Below are positions 9,401-58,868 of a DNA stretch of 64,000 nt, piece by piece (position 1 is the first letter of the stretch; the number at the start of each line of letters is the position of its first letter). The notes under the pieces are model-generated. The model ran no database searches. It saw only the letters and a program-made list of their open reading frames with translations, and was not told the origin of the DNA. Location of the stretch: the NCBI RefSeq assembly GCF_002288065.1, contig NZ_CP016773.1:310001-374000 (forward strand), written 5' to 3'. The position numbers and the translations under genes are program-made. Origin of the DNA: Candidatus Planktophila sulfonica (lineage in GTDB: Bacteria; Actinomycetota; Actinomycetes; Nanopelagicales; Nanopelagicaceae).

Positions 9401-11155
9401 ATGTCCGGTTTGAAAACTAGCCGTCGCATCCTTGCTTCAACAGCTGCAATCGCACTTGCTGTTGGCGTAACAGTTGCTGCAGGCTCAAGTGCAAACGCTG
9501 CAGAAAAGCCAGTTACTGGCGGCACTTTGTACTTCATTACACATCAAGAGCAGTTTGACCACGTAGATCCAGCCCGTGTTTACACAGGCCGCGATATCGC
9601 GTTCTTCAACTCATACATCTACCGCAACTTGGTTTCATACAAGCCGGTCCCAGGATCAGCAGGTTCATCACTCGTTGCAGACCTTGCAACAAACACTGGT
9701 GTTCCATCAAACGCTGCTAAGACATGGAAGTTCACACTTCGTTCAGGCATCACATGGGAAGACGGCTCAGCTGTTACCTGTGCTGACGTCAAGTACGGTG
9801 TTTCACGTCCATTCGCTGGCGATGTAATCACAGATGGTCCTCAGTACCTCGTACAGGCACTCGATATCCCTAAGGATAAAGATGGCGCATCTGTATACAA
9901 GGGTCCTTACAAGAAGACCGGACAGGCTCAGTTCGATAAGGCAGTTTCTTGCTCAGGTAACACAATTACCTTCAAGCTAAACCGCTCATTTGCTGACTTC
10001 AACTACGCACTTACTTACCCAGCAGGTGCACCAGTTAAGGCTTCAAAGGACACTGGAGATAAGTACGACCTCAAGCCATTCGCTAACGGTCCATACAAGA
10101 TTGCTTCATACAAGATCGGCGATCAGATGGAACTCGTACGTAACGCTGCTTGGAAGAAGTCTTCTGACGCAATCCGTACTCCATACCCAGATAACATCGT
10201 TGTTCGCTTCGGTCTAGCTGAAGATGTTCGCGATCAGATCATGCTCGAAGATCAGATCCCAAACACAGCTTCACTTGATTCACTACAGCCAGCAAATACA
10301 CGTGCATTCTTCGCTGACCCAACAAAGAAGGCTCAGCGCTTTAACGTGTACGACCCATACGTTCGCTACTCAGCAATGAACGTCAAGAAGGGCAAGATGG
10401 ATTGCCTCGATGTACGTAAGGCTCTCTTCTTCGCGATCGACACACAGGCTCTCATCGACCTTTCAGGTGGACGTGAGTTCTACGGAGATCCAGGAGATAA
10501 CCCTGTTAAGCCAGTTCTCGGTCTTGACTACACAAAGACAAAGGGCAACATTCACGATCCAAACTGGAAGATCACTGGAAATGCAACATATGCAGCTTCA
10601 TTGATGGCTAAGGCAAAGACCTCATGCCCAGATGCATACGCTCGCGCGACATCTGCTGACAAGGGAATCGTTTGGGATATTGCACAGTCTGCAACAAACG
10701 AGAAGGCATCTGTATTGATTCAGAATGCTGCAAAGGAAGCTGGCATTGTTGTGAAGTTCAACTTCATTCCATCAGGTCAGTACTACTCAACAGTTCTCAA
10801 CAACGACAAGCAGAATGACATTTCATCTGCTGGTTGGGGAGCTGACTGGGCAAACGCATCAACAGTTATTCCTGAACTCTTCACAAAAGAGGGTGGATTT
10901 AACTTGGCTCAGAACTGGGATGACCCTGCATACGCAGCATTCAAGAAGAAGTCAGATGCAGCAAAGGTAGAAACTAACCGCACCAAGCAGGCAGCGATGT
11001 GGAAGGAACTTTCACAGTACGTTATGGATCAGTACTGGATCATCCGCCCTGTCTTCTCAAAGACCCAAGAAGTTTGGGGATCTAAGGTCGGCGGCGTTTA
11101 CTACTGGGAGCCACAAGGTAACTTCGGCTTCGGACAGATGTACGTAAAGAACTAA
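9401..11155 (+). CDS. ABC transporter peptide-binding protein (SBP family 5)
   Basis: A 584-residue extracytoplasmic solute-binding protein of the DppA/OppA class. The N-terminus is a signal peptide (SRRILASTAAIALAVGVTV, cleavage near SANA-AEKP). The mature part has the family features GTLYFITHQEQFDHVDPARV, the region WKFTLRSGITWEDGSAVT, and a late lobe ending NFGFGQMYVK. There is no cysteine near the cleavage site, so no lipobox, which is unusual for a single-membrane bacterium. A strong AAGGAGG ribosome binding site lies eight bases before ATG 9401. Codons are strongly biased to a few synonyms (GCA/GCT, TTC, AAG), consistent with very high expression. It supplies peptides to the flanking permeases and ATPases. 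Confidence 0.93.
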   Translation: MSGLKTSRRILASTAAIALAVGVTVAAGSSANAAEKPVTGGTLYFITHQEQFDHVDPARVYTGRDIAFFNSYIYRNLVSYKPVPGSAGSSLVADLATNTGVPSNAAKTWKFTLRSGITWEDGSAVTCADVKYGVSRPFAGDVITDGPQYLVQALDIPKDKDGASVYKGPYKKTGQAQFDKAVSCSGNTITFKLNRSFADFNYALTYPAGAPVKASKDTGDKYDLKPFANGPYKIASYKIGDQMELVRNAAWKKSSDAIRTPYPDNIVVRFGLAEDVRDQIMLEDQIPNTASLDSLQPANTRAFFADPTKKAQRFNVYDPYVRYSAMNVKKGKMDCLDVRKALFFAIDTQALIDLSGGREFYGDPGDNPVKPVLGLDYTKTKGNIHDPNWKITGNATYAASLMAKAKTSCPDAYARATSADKGIVWDIAQSATNEKASVLIQNAAKEAGIVVKFNFIPSGQYYSTVLNNDKQNDISSAGWGADWANASTVIPELFTKEGGFNLAQNWDDPAYAAFKKKSDAAKVETNRTKQAAMWKELSQYVMDQYWIIRPVFSKTQEVWGSKVGGVYYWEPQGNFGFGQMYVKN

Positions 11156-17495: not shown

Positions 17496-17957
17496 TTACT
17501 TAGCCTTCTTAACTGCCTTCTTACGACGCTTTGGAGCAGCCTTCTTTGCAGCTGGCTTAGCAGCTGCCTTCTTGCGCTTTGGAGCAGCCTTCTTAGCAGC
17601 TGGCTTTGCAGCCTTCTTACGACGCTTCTTTGGAGCAGCAACTGTTGCAGCTGCAGCCTTCTTCTTGCGGCGCTTTGGAGCAGCCTTCTTAGCAGCTGGC
17701 TTTGCAGCTGCTGCCTTCTTGCGGCGCTTTGGAGCAGCCTTCTTAGCTGCTGCCTTCTTGCGGCGCTTTGGAGCTGCCTTCTTTGCAGCTGGCTTTGCAG
17801 CTGCCTTCTTGCGCTTTGGAGCTGCCTTCTTCGCAGCTGCCTTCTTACGACGCTTTGGTGCAGCTGCCTTTACAGCAGCCTTCTTACGACGCTTTGGAGC
17901 AGCTGTCTTAGCAGCTGCCTTCTTGCGCTTTGGAGCAGATTTCTTAGCTGCAGCCAT
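17496..17957 (-). CDS. Histone H1-like Lys/Ala-rich nucleoid protein
   Basis: A 153-residue protein composed of only eight amino-acid types (A, K, R, P with a few M, S, T, V). It is built from about ten copies of an A-P-K-R-(R)-K-K unit spaced by AAAK/AAKPAAKK linkers, giving an extremely basic, disordered chain like the C-terminal tails of linker histone H1 or of actinobacterial HupB, but without a globular domain. It very probably binds DNA or RNA non-specifically. I start at ATG 17957, with AGGAGAT upstream, instead of an in-frame ATG 14 codons earlier that would add a non-basic leader. The repeats are also near-identical at DNA level, so copy number could vary between strains. Transcription ends at the shared terminator. 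Confidence 0.8.
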   Translation of the reverse strand: MAAAKKSAPKRKKAAAKTAAPKRRKKAAVKAAAPKRRKKAAAKKAAPKRKKAAAKPAAKKAAPKRRKKAAAKKAAPKRRKKAAAAKPAAKKAAPKRRKKKAAAATVAAPKKRRKKAAKPAAKKAAPKRKKAAAKPAAKKAAPKRRKKAVKKAK

Positions 17958-18181
17958 GTGTTTATCTCCTAATCGGAAGGGTTCGGATCCGTCACCCAAA
18001 CCTGTTTCGTAGATAAGTGTGACGGAATATTGAAAAAAATGCCACTACATAGTGAGAAATTTCGCAGTGCGTGTCGCTAATTATTTTTTTATTTTTAATG
18101 TGCTCTTTCGCATTTTCATTAACTTATTTTCTAAATTTTTTAATAAAAATCTGGCGAAAAAGTTAAATATTCGATTGAGAG
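17958..18181. other. AT-rich intergenic region
   Basis: Spacer of 224 bp with no supported gene. The half nearer the MFS gene (about 18060-18180) is strikingly AT-rich with T-runs and A-runs, unlike the rest of the window. It contains the ribosome binding site AGGAGAT of the H1-like gene (reverse strand) and presumably its promoter, which I could not assign. No terminator hairpin for the MFS gene was found. Confidence 0.5.
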
Positions 18182-19450
18182 TTAGGAATTTTCCCGATTT
18201 TTACGAATTTCTCGCTCTCGAACGGCAAATTCGTTCGTTTCGACGTCATATTTCCACATTTTCGGCAAGAAAATTGCCAAAAATCCGACCACAACGACGC
18301 ACATCAGCCCTCCGGAAGTTACCGAAAAGGACAAGCTGGTAGCTGCAGCCATTGATGCGGCGCGAAGTTGTCCCGCTAATGGACCGACTGAATATGAAAG
18401 AAGTTCGATTCCAGCAAGCCGTCCGCGGAAGTTATCGGGGATGGTTTGGTTCCAAATATTTCCTCGGAAGAGGGCGCTGACCATGTCGAAGGCTCCGGCA
18501 ATTGTTAAGAAGATCAGTACGAGGATCAGTGAGTTGCTCAAACCCGCAGCGGCAACTGCCAGGCCCCAACCCATCGCCGCCAAAATAACGGCCCGGCCAT
18601 GGAATCGATAGGTGCGAGTCCATCCAGATGTCAGAGTGATGAAAACCGAGCCGACGGTAATTGATGCGTAGAAAAATCCGAGCGCCCAAGGTGCACCCAA
18701 ATCATCTGCCCAAAATGGATAGAGGGCCATCGGCATTGCAAGTGTCATGGCAGCGAGATCAATAATGTAAGTGCCCAATAAATCTTGGCGCTTAAATGCA
18801 TATCTCACACCATCTAATAACGCTGCCAGAGATGGCTTTTCGGCTTCCTTTGAAGGCGGGATGGATCGCACTCGCGCAAGGAAAAATAATGAAAGCAAAT
18901 ATGTTCCGATGTCGACAACGAATCCTGCACTTACTGACATCGTTGAGAAGATAACTCCACCAAGTGTTGGACCAACAATGACACCGAGCTGCCAACGCAA
19001 ACTTAAGAGCGCACTTGCCGCCGGCAAATCTTCATGACTGACAAGGCGAGGCAACATCGCATCCATTGATGGGCGCTGCAATCCATCGACTACTGCAAAG
19101 AGAGCAGCAACGAGATAGATGGCAAGAGTTTTTGGGCTTCCAAGAAGTGAGTTCCCTAGAAGGACAAGAACAAGGACAAGAGCGCCGGCTTCGGTGGCCC
19201 AGACCATCTTCTTGCGATCGACTGAATCGGCTAGAACCCCGCCATAAAGTCCGAAGATGATGAGCGGAACGATTTCAACGACACCTAAAAGTCCGACCGC
19301 AAGGTAGGAACCGGTCAGCTCTTTGAGTTGGAAGGGCAGTGCAACGTAGGTAATCATCGATCCGAAGTAAGAAATGAGCCCCGCAGTCCAGAGATTTCGG
19401 AAATCGGGGTATTTCTTCAGCGGGGTGAGGTCGATCGCGAACTTTGCCAC
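18182..19450 (-). CDS. MFS transporter, EntS-like exporter family
   Basis: A 422-residue membrane protein with about twelve helices. It begins LTPLKKYPDFRNLWTAGLIS, typical of the MFS_3/enterobactin-exporter (EntS-like) group, and has the A-motif version GGVLADSVDRKKMV between helices 2 and 3. After the last helix a short charged tail (RKNRENS) reaches into the AT-rich spacer. Family members export siderophores, macrolides or other compounds; no siderophore genes are present here. The start is GTG at 19450 with a -10-like TAAGGT exactly six bases upstream, suggesting leaderless expression. Confidence 0.85.
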   Translation of the reverse strand: MAKFAIDLTPLKKYPDFRNLWTAGLISYFGSMITYVALPFQLKELTGSYLAVGLLGVVEIVPLIIFGLYGGVLADSVDRKKMVWATEAGALVLVLVLLGNSLLGSPKTLAIYLVAALFAVVDGLQRPSMDAMLPRLVSHEDLPAASALLSLRWQLGVIVGPTLGGVIFSTMSVSAGFVVDIGTYLLSLFFLARVRSIPPSKEAEKPSLAALLDGVRYAFKRQDLLGTYIIDLAAMTLAMPMALYPFWADDLGAPWALGFFYASITVGSVFITLTSGWTRTYRFHGRAVILAAMGWGLAVAAAGLSNSLILVLIFLTIAGAFDMVSALFRGNIWNQTIPDNFRGRLAGIELLSYSVGPLAGQLRAASMAAATSLSFSVTSGGLMCVVVVGFLAIFLPKMWKYDVETNEFAVREREIRKNRENS

Positions 19451-19535
19451 ATCCGAACCTTAACCATCCTTTACGGGCAACTACGAAAACATGAGAAGAA
19501 AGAACACAGTTTTCTACATTGCCCGAAAAGGATTC

Positions 19536-20357
19536 CTAATGGAAGGTTTGGGTCGCAGTAGGGAACTGGCCCAATCGAACTTCCTCCGCGAATTCTTGGG
19601 TGGCATCGAATAATTCCTTGCGCAGATTTCGGTATGCCTTGGCCAGCTTTGGCGGATTGGCGGTGAAGCCTGCCATATCTGTCCAGACAAGAACCTGGGC
19701 ATCGCAATTACTTCCGGCGCCGATTCCGATCGTTGGAATAGAAAGGGCTGCAGTAATTCGCGCCGCTAAATCGGCGGGTACTAGTTCTAGAACTATGGCA
19801 AATGCACCAGCTTTTTCCAGGGCGAGCGCCGCTTCCAAAATCGCATCTCCATCGGTTCGACCCTGCACGCGATAGCCACCCAGCTGATGAAGTGATTGCG
19901 GGGTAAGGCCCAAGTGGCCCATGACTGGAATGCCGGCAGAGGTTAACTTTTCAACAGTTGCCAGGTGAGCACCTTCAAGCTTTACCGCCATCGCACCTGA
20001 CTCTTTAAAAAATCGCGTTGATGTCGCAAGTGCTTGTTCAGGAGAAGATTCATAAGAACCAAAGGGAAGGTCTGCAATTACTAGGGCGCGCTGTGAGCCG
20101 CGAACAACTGCGCGGGTCAGTGGAATCAAATCATCGACAGTGACAGGGATGGTGTTTTCTTCGCCAAAGAAATTATTGCCGGCGCTATCGCCGACGAGAA
20201 GGACGGGTATACCGGCCTCATCGAAGATGGAAGCGGTCATCTGTTCATAGCTGGTGAGCATCGCCCATTTTTCACCGCGCTCTTTGGCAGCGCGCAGGTC
20301 GAGGATGGTCACACGTCGGTGGGATGCGCCGCCATAAAGGGTCGTTGAAGTACTCAT
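19536..20357 (-). CDS. panB: 3-methyl-2-oxobutanoate hydroxymethyltransferase
   Basis: Transfers a hydroxymethyl group from methylene-tetrahydrofolate to 2-oxoisovalerate, giving ketopantoate, the first step of pantothenate (vitamin B5) synthesis. The 273-residue length is typical. Visible family motifs: MLTSYEQMTASIFDEAGIPV, LLVGDSAGN, DLPFGSYE, VKLEGA, MGHLGLTPQS and the end-region IGIGAGSNCDAQVLVW. In the usual Y-D motif the sequence reads SYEQ, a common actinobacterial variation. AGGAGATAAAAA precedes ATG 20357. No panC or panD is adjacent. Confidence 0.95.
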   Translation of the reverse strand: MSTSTTLYGGASHRRVTILDLRAAKERGEKWAMLTSYEQMTASIFDEAGIPVLLVGDSAGNNFFGEENTIPVTVDDLIPLTRAVVRGSQRALVIADLPFGSYESSPEQALATSTRFFKESGAMAVKLEGAHLATVEKLTSAGIPVMGHLGLTPQSLHQLGGYRVQGRTDGDAILEAALALEKAGAFAIVLELVPADLAARITAALSIPTIGIGAGSNCDAQVLVWTDMAGFTANPPKLAKAYRNLRKELFDATQEFAEEVRLGQFPTATQTFH

Positions 20358-20434
20358 TTTTTATCTCCTGCCTCGAAGCCTCATGCGAGGTCCCCGGGTC
20401 TTCCATCAAATGGTACTCCCGTTACTCTTGAACT

Positions 20435-22102
20435 ATGAAGTTGCGATTGGCGCTAGCTCAAATCAACCCCACGGTCGGAGACCTTGCGGGTAATGCTGCG
20501 CTGATTAAGCAATCGGTAGATCAGGCAGTTGGAGCGGGTGCGCATATCGCGATCTTCCCCGAGATGGTTCTGACTGGATATCCCGTTGAAGATTTGGCGC
20601 TCCGTCCTTCGTTTCAGATAGCGAGTAAGACAGCTCTTTCCGCGCTCGCTTCTCAATTAGATAAGAGCATCGTCTCCATCGTTGGTTACTTAGACCAGGT
20701 CGATGGCAAGCCCCAGAACATGGTCGCTGTTATTGCAGGCGGAGAAGTAAAGGCGCGTTATGCCAAGTGCCACCTACCTAACTACGGCGTATTCGATGAA
20801 TTCCGAAATTTCGTAGCAGGGGATTCAACTCTGGTTGTTCGCATCCATGGCGTTGACGTTGGAATCGCAATCTGTGAAGACCTCTGGATTGATGGTGGAA
20901 TCACGGCAAAGCTTGCAGCCCGCACTCCAGGACTTGTCATTGTTCCTAATGGTTCACCGTATGAACGCGCTAAAGATGACGTTCGTTTAAGCCTTGTTAC
21001 CAAACGCGCTCGCGAGGCTAAGGCTCCACTTGCCTACGTCAATATGACTGGTGGCCAAGATGATTTGGTTTTTGATGGCGACAGCATTGTTGTAAATGCA
21101 GAAGGTGCGGTCATTGCACGAGCACCTCAATTTGAAGATGGCGTCATGATTGTTGATGTCGAAGCTGCAACTGGCACATCAAAGCCCGATGTCATCATCT
21201 CTGAGGATGCAGTCGAAATCGCAAAGCTTTCGATTCCTGGGATTGCGCATCGATTGGGCGATGAAGAAGAGATGTGGAACGCCATCGTTGTGGGCCTTCG
21301 CGATTACGTGACAAAGAATGGTTTCAAGTCCGTTCTCGTTGGGCTTTCTGGCGGAATCGATTCCGCACTCGTTGCAGCTCTTGCCGTTGATGCACTTGGT
21401 CCAGACCGCGTCTTTGGTGTGGGCATGCCAAGTAAGTATTCATCTGATCATTCGATTGCCGATGCCGAAGCGATGGCTGCACATACCGGCCTAGCTTTTC
21501 GCATCGTTGAGATTCAGAAGATGGTCGATACCTTCCGTGACCAGGTAGAACTCACCGGTCTTGCCGAAGAGAATTTGCAGGCACGTGTTCGCGGAACAAC
21601 GCTGATGGGTCTTTCTAATCAAGAGGGTCACTTGGTTTTGGCCACAGGAAATAAATCAGAGCTTGCCTGCGGATATTCAACTTTGTATGGCGATGCCGTC
21701 GGTGGCTATGCGCCGATTAAAGATATTTATAAGACCGATGTCTGGGCACTTTCTCGTTGGCGCAATCAGGTGGCAAAAGAAGCTGGTGAAGTCCCACCGA
21801 TTCCAGAGAACTCAATTACCAAAGAGCCATCTGCCGAACTGCGTCCTGATCAAAAAGATTCTGATTCCCTTCCTGAATATGAAATTCTCGATCAGGTCCT
21901 TAAGGCATATGTCGATGATGACCTAGGGCGCGATGCCTTGATTGCGGCCGGCTTTGATAAAGAGTTGGTGATGCGAGTAATCGCGATGGTCGATAAGGCT
22001 GAATACAAGCGCCGCCAATATCCGCCTGGCACCAAGGTTTCTAAGCGTGCTTTCGGTAAGGATCGACGTCTGCCAATGACCAGTAAGTGGCGAGAACTCT
22101 AA
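20435..22102 (+). CDS. nadE: Glutamine-dependent NAD+ synthetase
   Basis: Converts nicotinate adenine dinucleotide to NAD+ using ATP and ammonia from glutamine. The N-terminal nitrilase-type glutaminase domain shows the catalytic triad Glu43 (FPEMVLTGYP), Lys111 (KCHLPNYGVFDE) and Cys147 (ICEDLW). The C-terminal synthetase domain has the PP-loop GLSGGIDSA at 304-312 and the later GNKSELACGYSTLYGD. The 555-residue length is normal for the bacterial two-domain form. The -10-like TACTCT lies six bases before ATG 20435. It is followed after 61 bp by glutamine synthetase, which makes the glutamine it consumes. Confidence 0.95.
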   Translation: MKLRLALAQINPTVGDLAGNAALIKQSVDQAVGAGAHIAIFPEMVLTGYPVEDLALRPSFQIASKTALSALASQLDKSIVSIVGYLDQVDGKPQNMVAVIAGGEVKARYAKCHLPNYGVFDEFRNFVAGDSTLVVRIHGVDVGIAICEDLWIDGGITAKLAARTPGLVIVPNGSPYERAKDDVRLSLVTKRAREAKAPLAYVNMTGGQDDLVFDGDSIVVNAEGAVIARAPQFEDGVMIVDVEAATGTSKPDVIISEDAVEIAKLSIPGIAHRLGDEEEMWNAIVVGLRDYVTKNGFKSVLVGLSGGIDSALVAALAVDALGPDRVFGVGMPSKYSSDHSIADAEAMAAHTGLAFRIVEIQKMVDTFRDQVELTGLAEENLQARVRGTTLMGLSNQEGHLVLATGNKSELACGYSTLYGDAVGGYAPIKDIYKTDVWALSRWRNQVAKEAGEVPPIPENSITKEPSAELRPDQKDSDSLPEYEILDQVLKAYVDDDLGRDALIAAGFDKELVMRVIAMVDKAEYKRRQYPPGTKVSKRAFGKDRRLPMTSKWREL

Positions 22103-22106
22103 TTTT

Positions 22107-22122
22107 GTAACACTGCCGTAAC
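22107..22122 (+). promoter_or_regulatory. Candidate GlnR-binding site upstream of glutamine synthetase
   Basis: GTAAC-N6-GTAAC matches the actinobacterial GlnR half-site pattern GTNAC-N6-GNAAC at every fixed position. It lies in the 61-bp gap between nadE and the glutamine synthetase gene, 42 bp before my chosen start (ATG 22164). GlnR is the global nitrogen regulator of many Actinobacteria; whether this genome encodes it cannot be seen here. Confidence 0.5.
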
Positions 22123-22163
22123 TTCTCTTTGGCACGATGGGGCACATGTCCCCAAGTGAAAAT

Positions 22164-23456
22164 ATGAGCAAGCAGCAAGAGTTTGTCCTTCGCACAATCG
22201 AAGAGCGCGATATCCGTTTTATCCGTCTGTGGTTTACAGACATTCTTGGAACTCTTAAATCTGTAGCGATTGCACCTGCTGAATTAGATAGCGCATTTGA
22301 AGAAGGAATCGGTTTCGACGGTTCGGCAATTCAAGGTTTCGCCCGCGAATTTGAATCCGATATGTTGGCAAAGCCAGACCCTGCAACATTTACGATCTTG
22401 CCGTGGCGCGCTGAAGCACAAGGTGCTGCACGTATGTTCTGCGATATCACTTTGCCGAGCGGTGAAGCATCTCCTGCCGACCCACGCAATGTTCTTCGTC
22501 GCACCTTAGATAAGGCCGCAAAGATGGGGTACACCTGTTACACCCACCCGGAAATTGAATTCTTCCTCTTTAAATCACAGCCAGAAAAAGGCGTTGCACC
22601 AGTTCCTGTAGATCAAGGTGGCTACTTCGATCACACACCTGCCGTTGTGGGCCATGACTTCCGTCGCCAAGCAATCACGTTGCTAGAAGCGATGGGAGTC
22701 TCAGTTGAATTTAGCCACCATGAAGGCGCTCCTGGTCAGCAGGAAATTGATCTTCGTTATGCAGATGCCTTGAGCACTGCCGATAACATCATGACTTTCC
22801 GCCATGTCATTAAGGAGGTTGCACTCAACCAAGGTTTCTTTGCATCCTTCATGCCAAAGCCATTTACCGAACATCCTGGCTCTGGAATGCACACACACGT
22901 CTCACTCTTTGATGGTGAGAAGAATGCTTTCTATGACGATAAGGCAGAGCTCAATCTTTCAACTGTCGGTCGTCAATTTATTGCCGGCATCTTGAAGCAT
23001 GCTGCTGAAATCACTGCCGTCACCAACCAGTGGGTCAACTCTTATAAGCGTCTACAAGGCGGGGGAGAAGCACCTTCGATTATTAACTGGGGCCATAACG
23101 ATCGCGGCGCACTTGTACGTATCCCTATGTATAAGCCAAATAAAGAGAACTCAACTCGTATCGAATTCCGCTCACCAGATTCTGCATGTAATCCTTACCT
23201 TGCCTATGCAGTGATGATTGCAGCTGGCCTTAAGGGAATTGAGAAGAAGTATGTTCTCGAACCATCAACGGATAACCAACTTCTTCCGTCAAACCTGGAA
23301 GAAGCGATCTTGGTGATGGAGAAGAGCGAGCTTGTCCGCGAGACTCTAGGCGAGCACGTCTTCGACTACTTCCTTCGCAATAAGCGTGCAGAGTGGCAGG
23401 ACTATCGCCGCCAGGTCAGCGCCTACGAATTAGATCGCTATTTACCTGTCCTGTAA
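22164..23456 (+). CDS. glnA: Glutamine synthetase, type I (GlnA2-like), without adenylylation loop
   Basis: Makes glutamine from glutamate, ammonia and ATP. Family motifs are present: latch-loop GIGFDGSAIQGFA, metal-binding HPEIEFFLF, FSHHEGAPGQQEIDLR, GSGMHTHVSLFD and FRSPDSACNPYLAYA. The N-terminus MSKQQEFVLRTIEERDIRF resembles, from memory, the start of mycobacterial GlnA2, so I prefer ATG 22164 (430 residues) over in-frame ATGs at 22137 and 22146. Where type I enzymes carry the NLYxLxxEE adenylylation loop, this one goes from LEPSTDN directly to QLLPSNLEEAI, about 16 residues shorter, so Tyr adenylylation looks impossible. A GlnR-like site lies upstream, and heliorhodopsin follows 36 bp downstream. 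Confidence 0.93.
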   Translation: MSKQQEFVLRTIEERDIRFIRLWFTDILGTLKSVAIAPAELDSAFEEGIGFDGSAIQGFAREFESDMLAKPDPATFTILPWRAEAQGAARMFCDITLPSGEASPADPRNVLRRTLDKAAKMGYTCYTHPEIEFFLFKSQPEKGVAPVPVDQGGYFDHTPAVVGHDFRRQAITLLEAMGVSVEFSHHEGAPGQQEIDLRYADALSTADNIMTFRHVIKEVALNQGFFASFMPKPFTEHPGSGMHTHVSLFDGEKNAFYDDKAELNLSTVGRQFIAGILKHAAEITAVTNQWVNSYKRLQGGGEAPSIINWGHNDRGALVRIPMYKPNKENSTRIEFRSPDSACNPYLAYAVMIAAGLKGIEKKYVLEPSTDNQLLPSNLEEAILVMEKSELVRETLGEHVFDYFLRNKRAEWQDYRRQVSAYELDRYLPVL

Positions 23457-23480
23457 CAGGTAATCGTGAGGAGTTCTTTG

Positions 23481-23486
23481 TAGCCT
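23481..23486 (+). promoter_or_regulatory. Probable -10 element of heliorhodopsin (leaderless)
   Basis: TAGCCT ends six bases before ATG 23493, the spacing expected when transcription begins at the start codon. It lies inside the glutamine synthetase-heliorhodopsin gap, so heliorhodopsin may be transcribed alone as well as by read-through. A GAGGAG at 23468-23473 is too far from the ATG to be a normal ribosome binding site. No good -35 was found. Confidence 0.5.
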
Positions 23487-23492
23487 TTACCT

Positions 23493-24257
23493 ATGGCTAA
23501 AGAAATCAACGCAGGATCTATTCGTCGCTACAACCTTATTGCTGGCTTCTTCCATCTCGTACAGATGATCGCAGTGCTTGCCCTTGCAAATGACTTCACC
23601 TTGCCGATTGTTGCGCGTTACATGGCAGGTCCTCCGGGAAGTGTCTTTGCTGAACCCGTTACTTTGCTCGAAGCGCCAATTGGACTAACCGTTGCGATAT
23701 TTCTTGGTCTCTCCGCTTTCTTCCACTTCCTTGTTGCAAGCCCACAATTCTTTGGTCGCTATAGCGCAGGCTTAGCCGCACAACGCAATTACTTCCGCTG
23801 GGTTGAGTACTCCTTGAGTTCATCAGTGATGATCGTTCTGATCGCTCTGATTACAGGCGTATCTGATGTTGTTGCTGTTATTGCTCTCTTTGGTGTTAAC
23901 GCTTCAATGATTTTATTTGGATGGCTTCAAGAGAAGTATGAGCAGCCAGGAAATGGTGGATGGCTTCCTTATATCTTCGGATGTATCGCAGGAGCTGTTC
24001 CATGGCTTGCGCTCTTGTTCTACGTTCTTGCAATTGGTGGTCCAGGAGATACCAAGGCGCCAGCATTCGTTTATGGAATCGTCTTCTCAATCTTCATTCT
24101 CTTCAACACTTTTGCCATCGTGCAGTATCTGCAATATAAAAAAGTGGGCAAGTGGTCGGATTACATTCGCGGTGAGAAGACCTATATAACGCTCTCACTC
24201 GTTGCTAAATCGGCCCTTGCTTGGCAGATCTTCTCTGGCACCTTGATTCCTCAGTAG
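23493..24257 (+). CDS. Heliorhodopsin
   Basis: A seven-helix retinal protein of 254 residues, inserted with the N-terminus inside (opposite to type 1 rhodopsins). The retinal-binding Lys is K239 in SLVAKSALAWQ of helix 7, with Ser235 before it. The Schiff-base counterion is Glu105 in RWVEYSLSSSVM of helix 3. Conserved His21 and His78 match His23 and His80 of the type protein 48C12 with a constant offset of two. From memory the sequence is very close to 48C12, which came from a freshwater actinobacterium. Heliorhodopsins do not pump ions in known cases; sensory or enzyme-regulating roles are proposed. It directly follows glutamine synthetase, and binding of a heliorhodopsin to glutamine synthetase has been reported in an acI actinobacterium (recalled, unchecked). 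Confidence 0.97.
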   Translation: MAKEINAGSIRRYNLIAGFFHLVQMIAVLALANDFTLPIVARYMAGPPGSVFAEPVTLLEAPIGLTVAIFLGLSAFFHFLVASPQFFGRYSAGLAAQRNYFRWVEYSLSSSVMIVLIALITGVSDVVAVIALFGVNASMILFGWLQEKYEQPGNGGWLPYIFGCIAGAVPWLALLFYVLAIGGPGDTKAPAFVYGIVFSIFILFNTFAIVQYLQYKKVGKWSDYIRGEKTYITLSLVAKSALAWQIFSGTLIPQ

Positions 24258-24280
24258 AACTCGGGATATCCTTGGGCTCT

Positions 24281-24325
24281 ATGAAACTCCGCGGACTCCT
24301 CCTTATCCGCCGTAGCGAGGCCTAA
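24281..24325 (+). CDS. leuL: leuA leader peptide (14 residues)
   Basis: ATG 24281 opens a short frame reading MKLRGLLLIRRSEA before TAA. Four of fourteen codons are Leu, including three in a row (CTC CTC CTT), the hallmark of leucine-sensing attenuation. A -10-like TATCCT ends eight bases before its ATG. Leu-rich leaders of this general form precede leuA in other Actinobacteria (family knowledge). Ribosome stalling at the Leu run would decide which downstream RNA structure forms. Confidence 0.8.
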   Translation: MKLRGLLLIRRSEA

Positions 24326-24396
24326 CAACCGGTCTCCTCGCTGCGGAGTTTGGTGTTGCCGGTAAACACCGCAGGTAAACCAAACTAATGAGGAGC
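24284..24396 (+). promoter_or_regulatory. leuA attenuator / alternative RNA structures
   Basis: Several perfect pairings compete in this leader. AAACTCCGC (24284-24292, inside the leader peptide) pairs with GCGGAGTTT (24343-24351), and AGCGAGG (24314-24320) with CCTCGCT (24336-24342). The 3' side GTTTGGT (24348-24354) can instead pair with ACCAAAC (24379-24385), enclosing a small hairpin GGTGTT/AACACC (24352-24357, 24365-24370). The last structures lie just before the ribosome binding site GAGGAGC (24390-24396) of leuA. There is no terminator T-run, so control is more likely through translation initiation or Rho than an intrinsic terminator. Confidence 0.7.
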
Positions 24397-24403
24397 TAAG
24401 TAA

Positions 24404-26119
<1,716 letters not shown>

Positions 26120-26133
26120 CTATCGTACGCAGT

Positions 26134-26880
26134 ATGTCTGCGCCTCAAACAAAGCTCTATCGCGATGAGGCAATCATTCTGCGCACGCAGAAGTTAGGCG
26201 AAGCAGATCGCATCATTACTCTGCTCACCAAAGAGCATGGCCGTATTCGCGGCGTAGCAAAAGGCGTTCGTCGCACTATGTCGAAGTTCGGCGCACGCCT
26301 TGAACCCGGCAGCCATGTCGATATTCAGATGCATGCCGGAAAAACCTTCGACACCATTACTCAAGTAGAAGCAATTATGAATTACGGCGAAGCGCTCACT
26401 GAGGATTACCAGCGCTGGACAATTGCTCACGCAATTCTGGAAACAGCAGAACGTTTTACTCAACAAGAAGAAGAGCCAGCAGCGCAAGAGTTTCATCTTG
26501 TTGTCGGTGGCATGAAAGCACTCGCCGAAAACCGCTACGACTCATCTCTGATTCTTGATGCATTCTTGCTTCGCTCACTTTCCATTGGTGGATACGAACC
26601 ATCAATGACTGCATGTTCTCGCTGCGAAAAGCCAGGACCTCACCGTTACTTCTCATTGGTCGGCGGCGGATCTGTCTGCATGGATTGCCGCCCCTCTGCA
26701 TCAGCAACAGCTTCAAGTGAAGCCCTTGAATTAATGCAGGCCTTGCTTAAAGGTGATTGGGATACGGCAGAAAAAAGCGAACCAAGACATCGCCGAGAGG
26801 CTAGTGGTTTGGTAACTGCTTACCTACAATGGCACCTTGAACGCGGACTACGAAGTTTGCCGATGGTCGAGAGGGCTTAG
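26134..26880 (+). CDS. recO: DNA repair protein RecO
   Basis: Recombination mediator that helps load RecA onto SSB-coated DNA with RecR. The 248-residue protein begins with the OB-fold stretch LYRDEAIILRTQKLGEADRIIT, followed by GVAKGVRRTMSKFGARLEPGS. The helical C-terminal domain contains the four-cysteine zinc site CSRCEKPG and CMDC. A -10-like TATCGT stands seven bases before the ATG, so the gene has its own likely leaderless promoter despite the 14-bp gap after leuA. It is followed by uppS after ten bases, an order common in Actinobacteria. Confidence 0.94.
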   Translation: MSAPQTKLYRDEAIILRTQKLGEADRIITLLTKEHGRIRGVAKGVRRTMSKFGARLEPGSHVDIQMHAGKTFDTITQVEAIMNYGEALTEDYQRWTIAHAILETAERFTQQEEEPAAQEFHLVVGGMKALAENRYDSSLILDAFLLRSLSIGGYEPSMTACSRCEKPGPHRYFSLVGGGSVCMDCRPSASATASSEALELMQALLKGDWDTAEKSEPRHRREASGLVTAYLQWHLERGLRSLPMVERA

Positions 26881-26890
26881 TTAGACACTG

Positions 26891-27601
26891 ATGGCTAAGA
26901 AGATTGAGATTCCCCAACACATCGCAATCGTGATGGATGGAAATGGGCGATGGGCCAAAGACCGTGGCCTTCCACGCACAGCGGGACATCAGGCCGGCGA
27001 AAAGGTTCTCTTCGATATCGTTGAAGCCGCCATTGAATTCGGTGTGAAAGAGATCAGCGCATATGCATTCTCAACAGAGAACTGGAAGCGCAGCCCTGAA
27101 GAAGTGAAGTTCTTGATGGGCTACAGCCGCGAAATGCTGCGCACCCGTCGTGATCGCCTCAACGAGATGGGCGTAAAGATCAATTGGTTGGGTCGCCCAC
27201 AGCGCTTATGGAAATCAGTGATTTCAGAGCTTGAAGAAGCAGAAGAGCTCACCAAGAAGAATAAGAAGCTCACTCTCAATATGTGCGTTAACTATGGTGG
27301 GCGTGCAGAGATCGTTGATGCCGCTGCTGAATTAGCTCGCGATGTAAAGCGTGGAAAAGTGAAGGCTGATGCAATCACTGAGAAGACTTTAGAGAAGTAC
27401 CTTTACTCACCAAAGATGCGCGATGTCGATATGTTTTTGCGTTCATCAGGTGAACAGCGCACCAGTAACTTCTTGCCATGGCAATCGTCATATGCCGAGT
27501 TCGTCTTCATGGATGTTTTGTGGCCAGATATGACGCCAAAGCTTTTGTGGAAAGCGATCGAGATTTACTCAGAGCGTGAGCGGAGATTCGGAAGTGCGTA
27601 G
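26891..27601 (+). CDS. uppS: Isoprenyl (undecaprenyl) diphosphate synthase, cis-type
   Basis: Builds the long polyprenyl diphosphate that carries cell-wall precursors, by adding isopentenyl units in cis to an allylic primer. The catalytic Asp16 lies in [20 protein letters not shown] near the N-terminus; further signatures are [12 protein letters not shown] and [17 protein letters not shown]. The 236-residue length fits. It shares a transcription unit with recO. It converges on zur with a 40-bp gap in which I see no terminator. Confidence 0.95.
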
Positions 27602-57863: not shown

Positions 57864-57911
57864 ATTCGTATTTTTGCATACATCCTCATGAATCTTGCTA
57901 CTGTGACGTTT

Positions 57912-58868
57912 ATGGACACAGCAAAGTTGAGAACCTTTTCAACAGTCCGAACCGCATCTTCCCTTGCTACATTAATCGGAATCGTCCTCTCTTTGGTCTT
58001 CTCTTCATGGCTTGGTGCCGATTCACTCAATTGGCAGGTAGCTATTGCAGTTCTTGCATTGGCAGTAGGAATTCCGCATGGATCACTCGATCACTTGGTA
58101 ACTCTTCCAAAATCTAAGCCTCTGCTGATGGCTTTCTTCATAGTTATATATGTAGCAATTGCACTTGCCGCTATTTGGGCGATTTTGCAGTGGAACGTCT
58201 ATGGATTTATTGCCGTGGTTCTTATGAGTGCAACTCACTTTGGAATCGGCGATAGCGCATTTATTGCAGAACTTGATCGCGAGCAGGGCCGCACAGGAAA
58301 AAGCATTCCTGTCTTTGCCTATGCTTCTGCCGGCGGGTTATTGCCCGTTGTCATTCCTCTTGTGCAGAGCCGAAGCACTGAAGCTCTTGAGAAGGTAAAT
58401 GAGAACTTAGTTGATTGGCACTATGGATTTACATCAGAGATTCAAATCATCGTTGCGGCAATTGCAACCATTAGCCTTCTGATTCTTATCTCCCGAAAGC
58501 GCTATCGCGATTCAGTGGATATTGCACTACTTGCAGGGCTTGCATCGATTGCACCGCCGCTTGTCTCGTTCGCCATCTACTTTGGTTGCTGGCATGCAAT
58601 GCGCCATACAGCGCGATTGACCTCATTACTCCCACGTTCGCAGGCTGCGTATCAACAATCACGCGGCTTTAAGGCTTTCAGTTATGCGGTTATTCCAGGG
58701 CTACCGGCACTGGCCGGCACATTTATCTTTGTCATTCTCCTTGCTGCAATCGCTCGTGAAAATATCAGCGATCACTTTCTCTGGCTTACATTGGTCACAA
58801 TCTGGGCGCTCACGGTTCCTCACATGATTGTCACAGCCAAGTTAGACCGCGCCGCTCTCAAGGATTAA
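57912..58868 (+). CDS. blh: Brp/Blh-family beta-carotene 15,15'-dioxygenase
   Basis: Cleaves beta-carotene into two retinal molecules, giving the chromophore for heliorhodopsin (and any other rhodopsin). A multi-helix membrane protein of about 318 residues with the family His motifs: GIPHGSLDHLVTL near the N-terminal third, SATHFGIGDSAF, CWHAMRHTARL and a final VPHMIVTAKLD. I prefer ATG 57912, because TACTGT ends seven bases upstream; ATG 57888 would add eight residues and has no ribosome binding site. It faces the lycopene cyclase pair head to head. Confidence 0.93.
   Translation: MDTAKLRTFSTVRTASSLATLIGIVLSLVFSSWLGADSLNWQVAIAVLALAVGIPHGSLDHLVTLPKSKPLLMAFFIVIYVAIALAAIWAILQWNVYGFIAVVLMSATHFGIGDSAFIAELDREQGRTGKSIPVFAYASAGGLLPVVIPLVQSRSTEALEKVNENLVDWHYGFTSEIQIIVAAIATISLLILISRKRYRDSVDIALLAGLASIAPPLVSFAIYFGCWHAMRHTARLTSLLPRSQAAYQQSRGFKAFSYAVIPGLPALAGTFIFVILLAAIARENISDHFLWLTLVTIWALTVPHMIVTAKLDRAALKD

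Follow-up and report, generated by a model that had tools for sequence, protein, structure and literature searches.

In a 64,000-nucleotide stretch of the 1.34-Mb single-contig genome of Candidatus Planktophila sulfonica (G000:C1:310001-374000, hereafter the window), a heliorhodopsin (HeR) gene lies directly behind a gene resembling glutamine synthetase (GS). The gene order is panB (reverse strand), nadE, the GS-like gene, HeR and leuA, and nadE, the GS-like gene and HeR are adjacent and on the same strand. We consider it reasonably likely that these are a nitrogen-regulated glnA2 gene and an autonomous photoreceptor gene, which are controlled separately and share a plastic locus. The glnA2 gene would be transcribed from its own GlnR-box promoter under nitrogen limitation, and its product would be a side enzyme, a GlnA2-type ligase possibly glutamylating amines such as polyamines. 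HeR would have its own leaderless promoter. In some acI lineages it is found between glnA2 and leuA, in others at a different place, and transcription of glnA2 could read through into HeR.

An earlier note on this DNA had taken the genes for a light-tuned nitrogen-assimilation unit and had cited a 2022 paper by Cho and colleagues. The paper exists (PMC9529153) and reports, as the note says, the pairing, the binding and an effect on activity in an acI relative (AbHeR and AbGS of IMCC26103). The pairing is not new, since Cho 2022, Bulzu 2021 (PMC8612252) and Cho 2024 (PMC11109279) describe GS-HeR linkage. The class 1 HeR transcripts of Bulzu 2021 and the GS group of Cho 2024 hold the same combination of GS, NAD synthetase and HeR, seen in transcripts of Planktophila/Nanopelagicus as well as among genome groups. 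The available parts of these two papers contain no analysis of GlnA2, the GlnR box or a leaderless promoter, which is added here. A literature search, in which some matching papers were not opened, found no publication that makes the points on GlnA2, the GlnR box or a HeR promoter, and none that treats heliorhodopsin together with GlnA2. Few functions have been assigned to heliorhodopsins, and the pairing with GS is among those backed by biochemistry. Should the enzyme prove to be an amine ligase of the GlnA2 type under its own nitrogen control, its assays would need repeating with amines, and gene adjacency would be no proof of a shared unit.

The enzyme behind nadE is of the GlnA2 type

The earlier note called the enzyme GlnA2-like, and its residue set, its position in the tree and its identity to GlnA2 of the class bear this out. 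Aligned to E. coli GlnA and to the GlnA1 of the same cell, the window enzyme has Ala55 at the Ser53 position and Pro238 at the Asn264 position and lacks the residue-397 loop; GlnA1 keeps Ser, Asn and Tyr at the three sites. With TIGR00653 the enzyme scored 427.5, just under the cut-off of 429.15, and GlnA1 654.7. It is 66-75% identical to 20 sequences of the class and 70.6% to one from Nonomuraea, which is unannotated and was assigned to GlnA2 in this analysis. In a tree rooted on E. coli GlnA, PuuA and its own GlnA1, all long branches, it groups with 21 class sequences (94/97).

Pro238 is present in all 44 acI sequences (25 HeR-linked, 19 not) and in 17 of 21 from the class, the other four having Ala. 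Ala55 was found in 42/44 and 19/21, respectively, with Ser in the remainder. The 397 loop is lost in 44/44 acI sequences and retained, with Trp, in 21/21 from the class; in these counts, as in the box and -10 counts below, L024 and L114 are one locus counted twice. Occurring in HeR-linked and unlinked acI sequences alike, these changes are independent of HeR. We also rejected the idea that HeR compensates for a GS weakened in this pair, as acI sequences without a linked HeR have Pro238 in 19/19 and Ala55 in 18/19 cases.

GlnA2 of Streptomyces coelicolor is a gamma-glutamylpolyamine synthetase for which loss of Ser53 and Asn264 was reported, and methionine sulfoximine had no effect on it (PMC8998196). 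Compared by its published description, it resembles the window enzyme in both losses, with Asn264 replaced by Pro238 in each. Unlike it, the acI enzymes also lack the 397 loop, and the published model places Glu55 at Ser53 and Asp150 at Tyr179 where our alignment reads Ala55 and Tyr154. Cho 2022 reads the enzyme as a GS and notes that another reaction is possible (PMC9529153); here it is of the GlnA2 type.

Only one other GS gene is present in the genome, that of the GlnA1 with canonical residues; AmtB and GlnK are encoded as well. The window enzyme is probably not the main glutamine synthetase of the cell. Its clade is read directly from the alignment and the tree, and its substrate we infer. 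It is possible, though doubtful, that the enzyme really makes glutamine, only slowly, and serves the cell as a second GS. It retains the catalytic Glu and Arg. AbGS forms product with ammonium and partially complements an E. coli glnA knockout, so it does make some glutamine (PMC9529153). On the other side, S. coelicolor GlnA2 used ammonium only at unphysiological excess in vitro and reportedly had no GS activity in vivo (PMC8998196), and loss of glnA2 in Mycobacterium smegmatis was rescued by neither L-, D- nor iso-glutamine (PMC6142876).

Tyr397 of a canonical GS is the adenylylation site and is modified with GlnE. The GlnE adenylyltransferase was not found in the genome, by a search that was positive in 3 of 14 control genomes including C. 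glutamicum, though GlnR, GlnK, AmtB and a GlnA1 bearing Tyr397 are present.

glnA2 and HeR carry separate promoter-like elements

The exact GlnR-type box GTAAC-n6-GTAAC occurs four times in the whole genome, and its reversed control twice. Three exact boxes precede glnA2, glnA1 (106 nt to the start) and amtB-glnK (88 nt). The genome encodes GlnR (PF21695, 133.3 bits; its relatives in the PDB are GlnR). The GlnR box of S. venezuelae is GTnAC-n6-GTnAC, and GlnR controls glnA1 and glnA2 in M. smegmatis (PMC3662644). The predicted sites here resemble this actinomycete regulon in lying before glnA1, amtB-glnK and glnA2. Since a GlnR-type box lies upstream, glnA2 appears to belong to nitrogen control; the boxes are plain in the DNA, while binding of the regulator and the start sites are predicted. 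Before glnA2, the exact box was found in 28 and the looser form in all of 45 acI sequences, compared with 0/21 and 4/21 in the class, and reversed upstream sequences had none.

Downstream of the box, [TC]ANNNT stands 6-8 nt before the ATG in 31/45 acI sequences and in 25 of the 26 HeR-linked ones. This bears on the gene start, which the earlier note had placed at 22164. The ATG at 22146 is likelier, because the codon at 22164 is ATC in several relatives (e.g. L006, L011, L012) and a -10-like element precedes the upstream ATG.

The fourth exact box (L147 3642-3657; G000:C1:1276642-1276657) precedes SIS/ROK/amidohydrolase genes that resemble amino-sugar genes, a difference from the published regulon (PMC3662644). 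It may put amino-sugar use into the nitrogen regulon.

TANNNT lies 6-7 nt before the HeR ATG in 26/26 glnA2-linked sequences and in 41/53 others, and [TC]ANNNT in 52 of these 53; at other spacings from 0 to 25 nt the count of TANNNT was at most 4. In this set the locus with a 973-bp gap counts as linked and seven short loci, less L068, as others; L080 and L068 were dropped because their alignments start past residue 1. A Shine-Dalgarno-like motif was seen in 1/26 linked sequences and 0/53 others, and a GlnR-type box in 0/79. Most starts in M. tuberculosis have TANNNT 7-12 bp upstream, and leaderless transcripts are common there (PMC3898074). TANNNT is also enriched at 6-7 nt in the genome of the window (31 matches, 117 first starts). 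A Fisher test of the HeR -10 elements against genes within units was left unused, the HeR sequences being related. A sigma-70 consensus scan was uninformative at the locus, because it found 0 promoters where shuffles gave 4.4.

Thus conserved promoter-like elements stand separately before glnA2 and before HeR, whereas Cho et al. describe the order NAD synthetase-GS-HeR with one promoter, predicted before the NAD synthetase gene (PMC9529153). This suggests that glnA2 and HeR have separate switches. Under the reading of Cho et al. and of the earlier note, nadE, GS and HeR share a transcript, and HeR, by binding GS, increases the synthesis of glutamine in light. In our view such an operon is unlikely. 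It fits the 36-bp glnA2-HeR gap, in which no terminator-like site was found, and the GlnR-type box, which would supply nitrogen control. The separate elements, the HeR without a GlnR-type box, and a GlnA2 residue set beside a canonical GlnA1 argue against it.

HeR shares a locus, probably a plastic one, with glnA2 in some acI lineages

HeR lies at most 600 bp behind glnA2 in 25 of 80 named loci, the best 80 of at least 446 matches, and at 973 bp in one more. The survey of this adjacency that the earlier note had proposed found it in 26 of 73 same-genus entries, the genome of the window included, so that it recurs and is not chance. Among the 59 same-genus entries with GlnA2, HeR is adjacent in 26, elsewhere in 18 (a HeR on another contig counts as elsewhere) and not found in 15; the 14 entries without a GlnA2 match, nine of them with HeR, were left unjudged. 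At the class level 45/47 entries have GlnA2, and HeR is elsewhere in 6 of these 45 and adjacent in none. This recurrence is what a light-tuned operon would lead one to expect.

The upstream neighbour is nadE, as the earlier note said. Its carbon-nitrogen hydrolase domain accompanies the NAD synthase domain, so the enzyme is presumably glutamine dependent. We reject a reading of nadE as part of a HeR unit. In 34 of the 45 class genomes with GlnA2, nadE is no more than 12 kb away from glnA2, always divergent and never with HeR adjacent to glnA2, so its proximity does not point to a unit with HeR and speaks against the operon as well. The remaining class genomes are eight without nadE in the typed list and three with nadE on another contig.

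Another explanation, which we regard as possible, is that HeR is a pure passenger that serves in unrelated light sensing and was placed by homologous exchange between the conserved glnA2 and leuA flanks at a plastic spot. In a sister acI clade, cysK and cysE are inserted between nadE and glnA2 (L096 2166-3608 and relatives); the glnA2 neighbourhood gave no substrate clue, the genes inserted there being these two. Ten representative neighbours of unlinked HeRs gave seven family matches, which varied (photolyase-related, CopC, SOUL, esterase and others). The linkage label requires four changes on the HeR tree and five on the GS tree. Over 22 loci, a small test, the distance correlations were 0.929 for GS-nadE, 0.657 for nadE-HeR and 0.611 for GS-HeR, so that HeR follows GS and nadE less than these follow each other; for GS-HeR one of 999 permutations was as high, and the partial correlation given nadE was r = 0.003. 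Between the window and Actinobacteria bacterium IMCC25003 (L011) the distance was likewise largest for HeR (0.116; nadE 0.043, GS 0.014). The binding and the light effect of the relative pair in vitro (PMC9529153) stand against a pure passenger, and the linkage spans many lineages, so that repeated placement could mean selection.

In 19 acI loci without a linked HeR, leuA is next behind glnA2 in 17, and two stretches end before leuA. At L114 1996-4179 (reverse strand), the same locus as L024, a 727-aa opposite-strand open reading frame (ORF) lies between nadE and glnA2.

The heliorhodopsin and its possible coupling to GlnA2

The complete HeR that the earlier note saw 36 bp behind a glnA2-like gene was confirmed by the coordinates and the profile matches. 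PF18761 (334.7 bits) aligned at full length, residues 10-251 of 254 to profile positions 1-242 of 242, and NCBIfam NF038020 gave 348.9 bits (cut-off 100). Retinal lysine K239, counterion E105 and H21/H78, all named in the note, are present and are identical in all 81 aligned HeRs. It is the single HeR found in a genome-wide search, and its relative in the PDB is 48C12 (6su3). Heliorhodopsins bind retinal, have an inverted topology and show a long photocycle. Retinal supply in this cell is plausible, because a Blh-type dioxygenase is encoded in the window and a type 1 rhodopsin (PF01036), probably an actinorhodopsin, elsewhere in the genome (G000:C1:237531-238205).

The window pair resembles AbHeR/AbGS in gene order, in K216/K217/K220 of the third intracellular loop (ICL3) and in Ala55/Pro238; in IMCC26103 HeR and leuA are separated by a Gfo/Idh/MocA gene, whereas in the window leuA comes directly after HeR (PMC9529153). 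We compared the lysines among the 80 best matches, without the 973-bp locus and seven loci with less than 1.5 kb upstream. K216 was kept in 25/26 glnA2-linked HeRs and 46/47 not near glnA2, K217 in 26/26 and 44/47, and K220 in 24/26 and 47/47, in a search that was seeded partly on QYKKVGKW and so favours these residues. The eight HeRs outside the comparison kept them in 8/8, 7/8 and 8/8 cases. The ICL3 lysines are thus not specific to glnA2-linked HeRs and are doubtful as a mark of GS binding, which again counts against the light-tuned operon. Cho 2024 reports that charged residues are alike in co-transcribed and other HeRs, and that ten neighbour groups do show residue differences from lone HeRs, which favours the operon (PMC11109279).

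Several published observations and results of our own weigh against separately controlled genes with a side ligase. AbHeR bound AbGS with a Kd of 6 uM in membranes and 100 uM in detergent; the binding depends on K216, with K217 and K220 assisting, and K216Q abolished it, while kcat/Km of AbGS was 5.42 without HeR and, in its presence, 8.01 in the dark and 12.19 in light (PMC9529153). These data, with the growth of E. coli carrying AbHeR/AbGS and the partial glnA rescue given above, support the light-tuned operon, as do freshwater metatranscripts on which GS and NAD synthetase occur along with HeR (PMC8612252). Lysine conservation in other HeRs does not disprove a role of the lysines here. The 22-locus co-variation test was small. 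Binding of GlnR to the S. coelicolor glnA2 promoter required large amounts of the protein or its acetylation (PMC8998196). Finally, TANNNT at 6-7 nt was equally common inside tight gene runs (18/70) and at run heads (14/56), and therefore the argument for a HeR promoter comes from its conservation, not its presence.

The polyamine genes count on both sides. PotABCD-like genes lie beside an aminobutyraldehyde dehydrogenase gene (L144 6521-12049). The dehydrogenase (PRK13473, 708.9 bits, cut-off 615) and PotA (372.5 bits, cut-off 355.6) pass their cut-offs, which favours the side-ligase reading, but the PotB-, PotC- and PotD-like proteins score below theirs. No convincing PuuD-type hydrolase was found with PF07722: its matches were only partial, the best of them (47.3 bits) in a frame of 521 aa, which leaves a complete gamma-glutamyl route unsupported. 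Polyamine transporters have been reported in acI bacteria (PMC5574706). By analogy with S. coelicolor GlnA2, the window enzyme may glutamylate amines such as polyamines.

On balance we prefer a nitrogen-regulated glnA2 and a separately controlled HeR. The light-tuned unit of the earlier note drew little support, given the separate promoter-like elements with no GlnR-type box at HeR, an enzyme without two canonical ammonia-GS residues, unspecific lysines and a co-variation that is gone given nadE; its GlnA2 label and its citation held. AbGS is moreover slow, with a kcat of 0.15 per s and a Km for glutamate of 27 mM (PMC9529153). Because AbHeR and AbGS bind each other in vitro, HeR and GlnA2 of the window may be coupled through protein contact. 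If the AbHeR-AbGS interaction applied here, light would modestly raise the side-ligase activity via the ICL3 lysines. A bolder version, which we put forward as speculative, is that the published GS-HeR pair is misnamed: the partner would be a GlnR-controlled GlnA2 amine ligase, light would tune polyamine/amine nitrogen scavenging rather than ammonia assimilation, and HeR would be a mobile, self-contained photoreceptor cassette, driven by a leaderless promoter of its own and changing loci and partners.

Two observations concern the HeR records themselves. In G018 the HeR match is split over opposite strands of one contig (G018:C1:4-519 and 9637-9945), by assembly error or rearrangement. Six public records of metagenome-assembled genomes (L004, L005, L025, L033, L051, L052) are titled Bifidobacterium breve, Streptomycetaceae or Streptomyces griseus, and these titles look wrong because their HeRs are of acI type.

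Other features of the window

The features are listed in Table 1. Identity to IMCC25003 is 99% for the GS-like enzyme, 97% for LeuA, 96% for NadE and 89% for HeR. An Rfam search over window positions 19000-27000 gave no match.

Table 1. Features around glnA2 and HeR, in positions of the window
Feature	Position	Strand	Remark
nadE, NAD+ synthetase with carbon-nitrogen hydrolase domain, 555 aa	20435..22102	+	PRK13981, 676.6 bits
GlnR-type box GTAAC-n6-GTAAC before glnA2	22107..22122	+	one of four exact genome copies
-10-like element CACGAT, predicted leaderless glnA2 promoter	22133..22138	+	7 nt before ATG 22146
glnA2, GS-like ligase, GlnA2 clade	22146..23456	+	start 22146 preferred over 22164
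-10-like element TAGCCT, predicted leaderless HeR promoter	23481..23486	+	6 nt before ATG 23493
heliorhodopsin, 254 aa, H21/H78/E105/S235/K239, ICL3 K216/K217/K220	23493..24257	+	
putative leuA leader peptide MKLRGLLLIRRSEA, HeR-leuA interval	24281..24325	+	read from sequence
leuA, 2-isopropylmalate synthase	24404..26119	+	
blh-type beta-carotene 15,15'-dioxygenase, possible retinal source	57888..58868	+	

The leucine-rich leader before leuA resembles a leuA attenuator (fold z -2.77). At least 14 of 46 sequences from relatives end in the same leader peptide as the window and others are similar; the total of 43/46 is an upper bound, as the script accepts any leucine-rich small ORF. Because such a leader sits between HeR and leuA, leuA also looks separately controlled. 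Further upstream, at 17496-17999 on the reverse strand, the window has a repetitive lysine/alanine-rich ORF with KKAAPKRR repeats, which is histone-like by eye.

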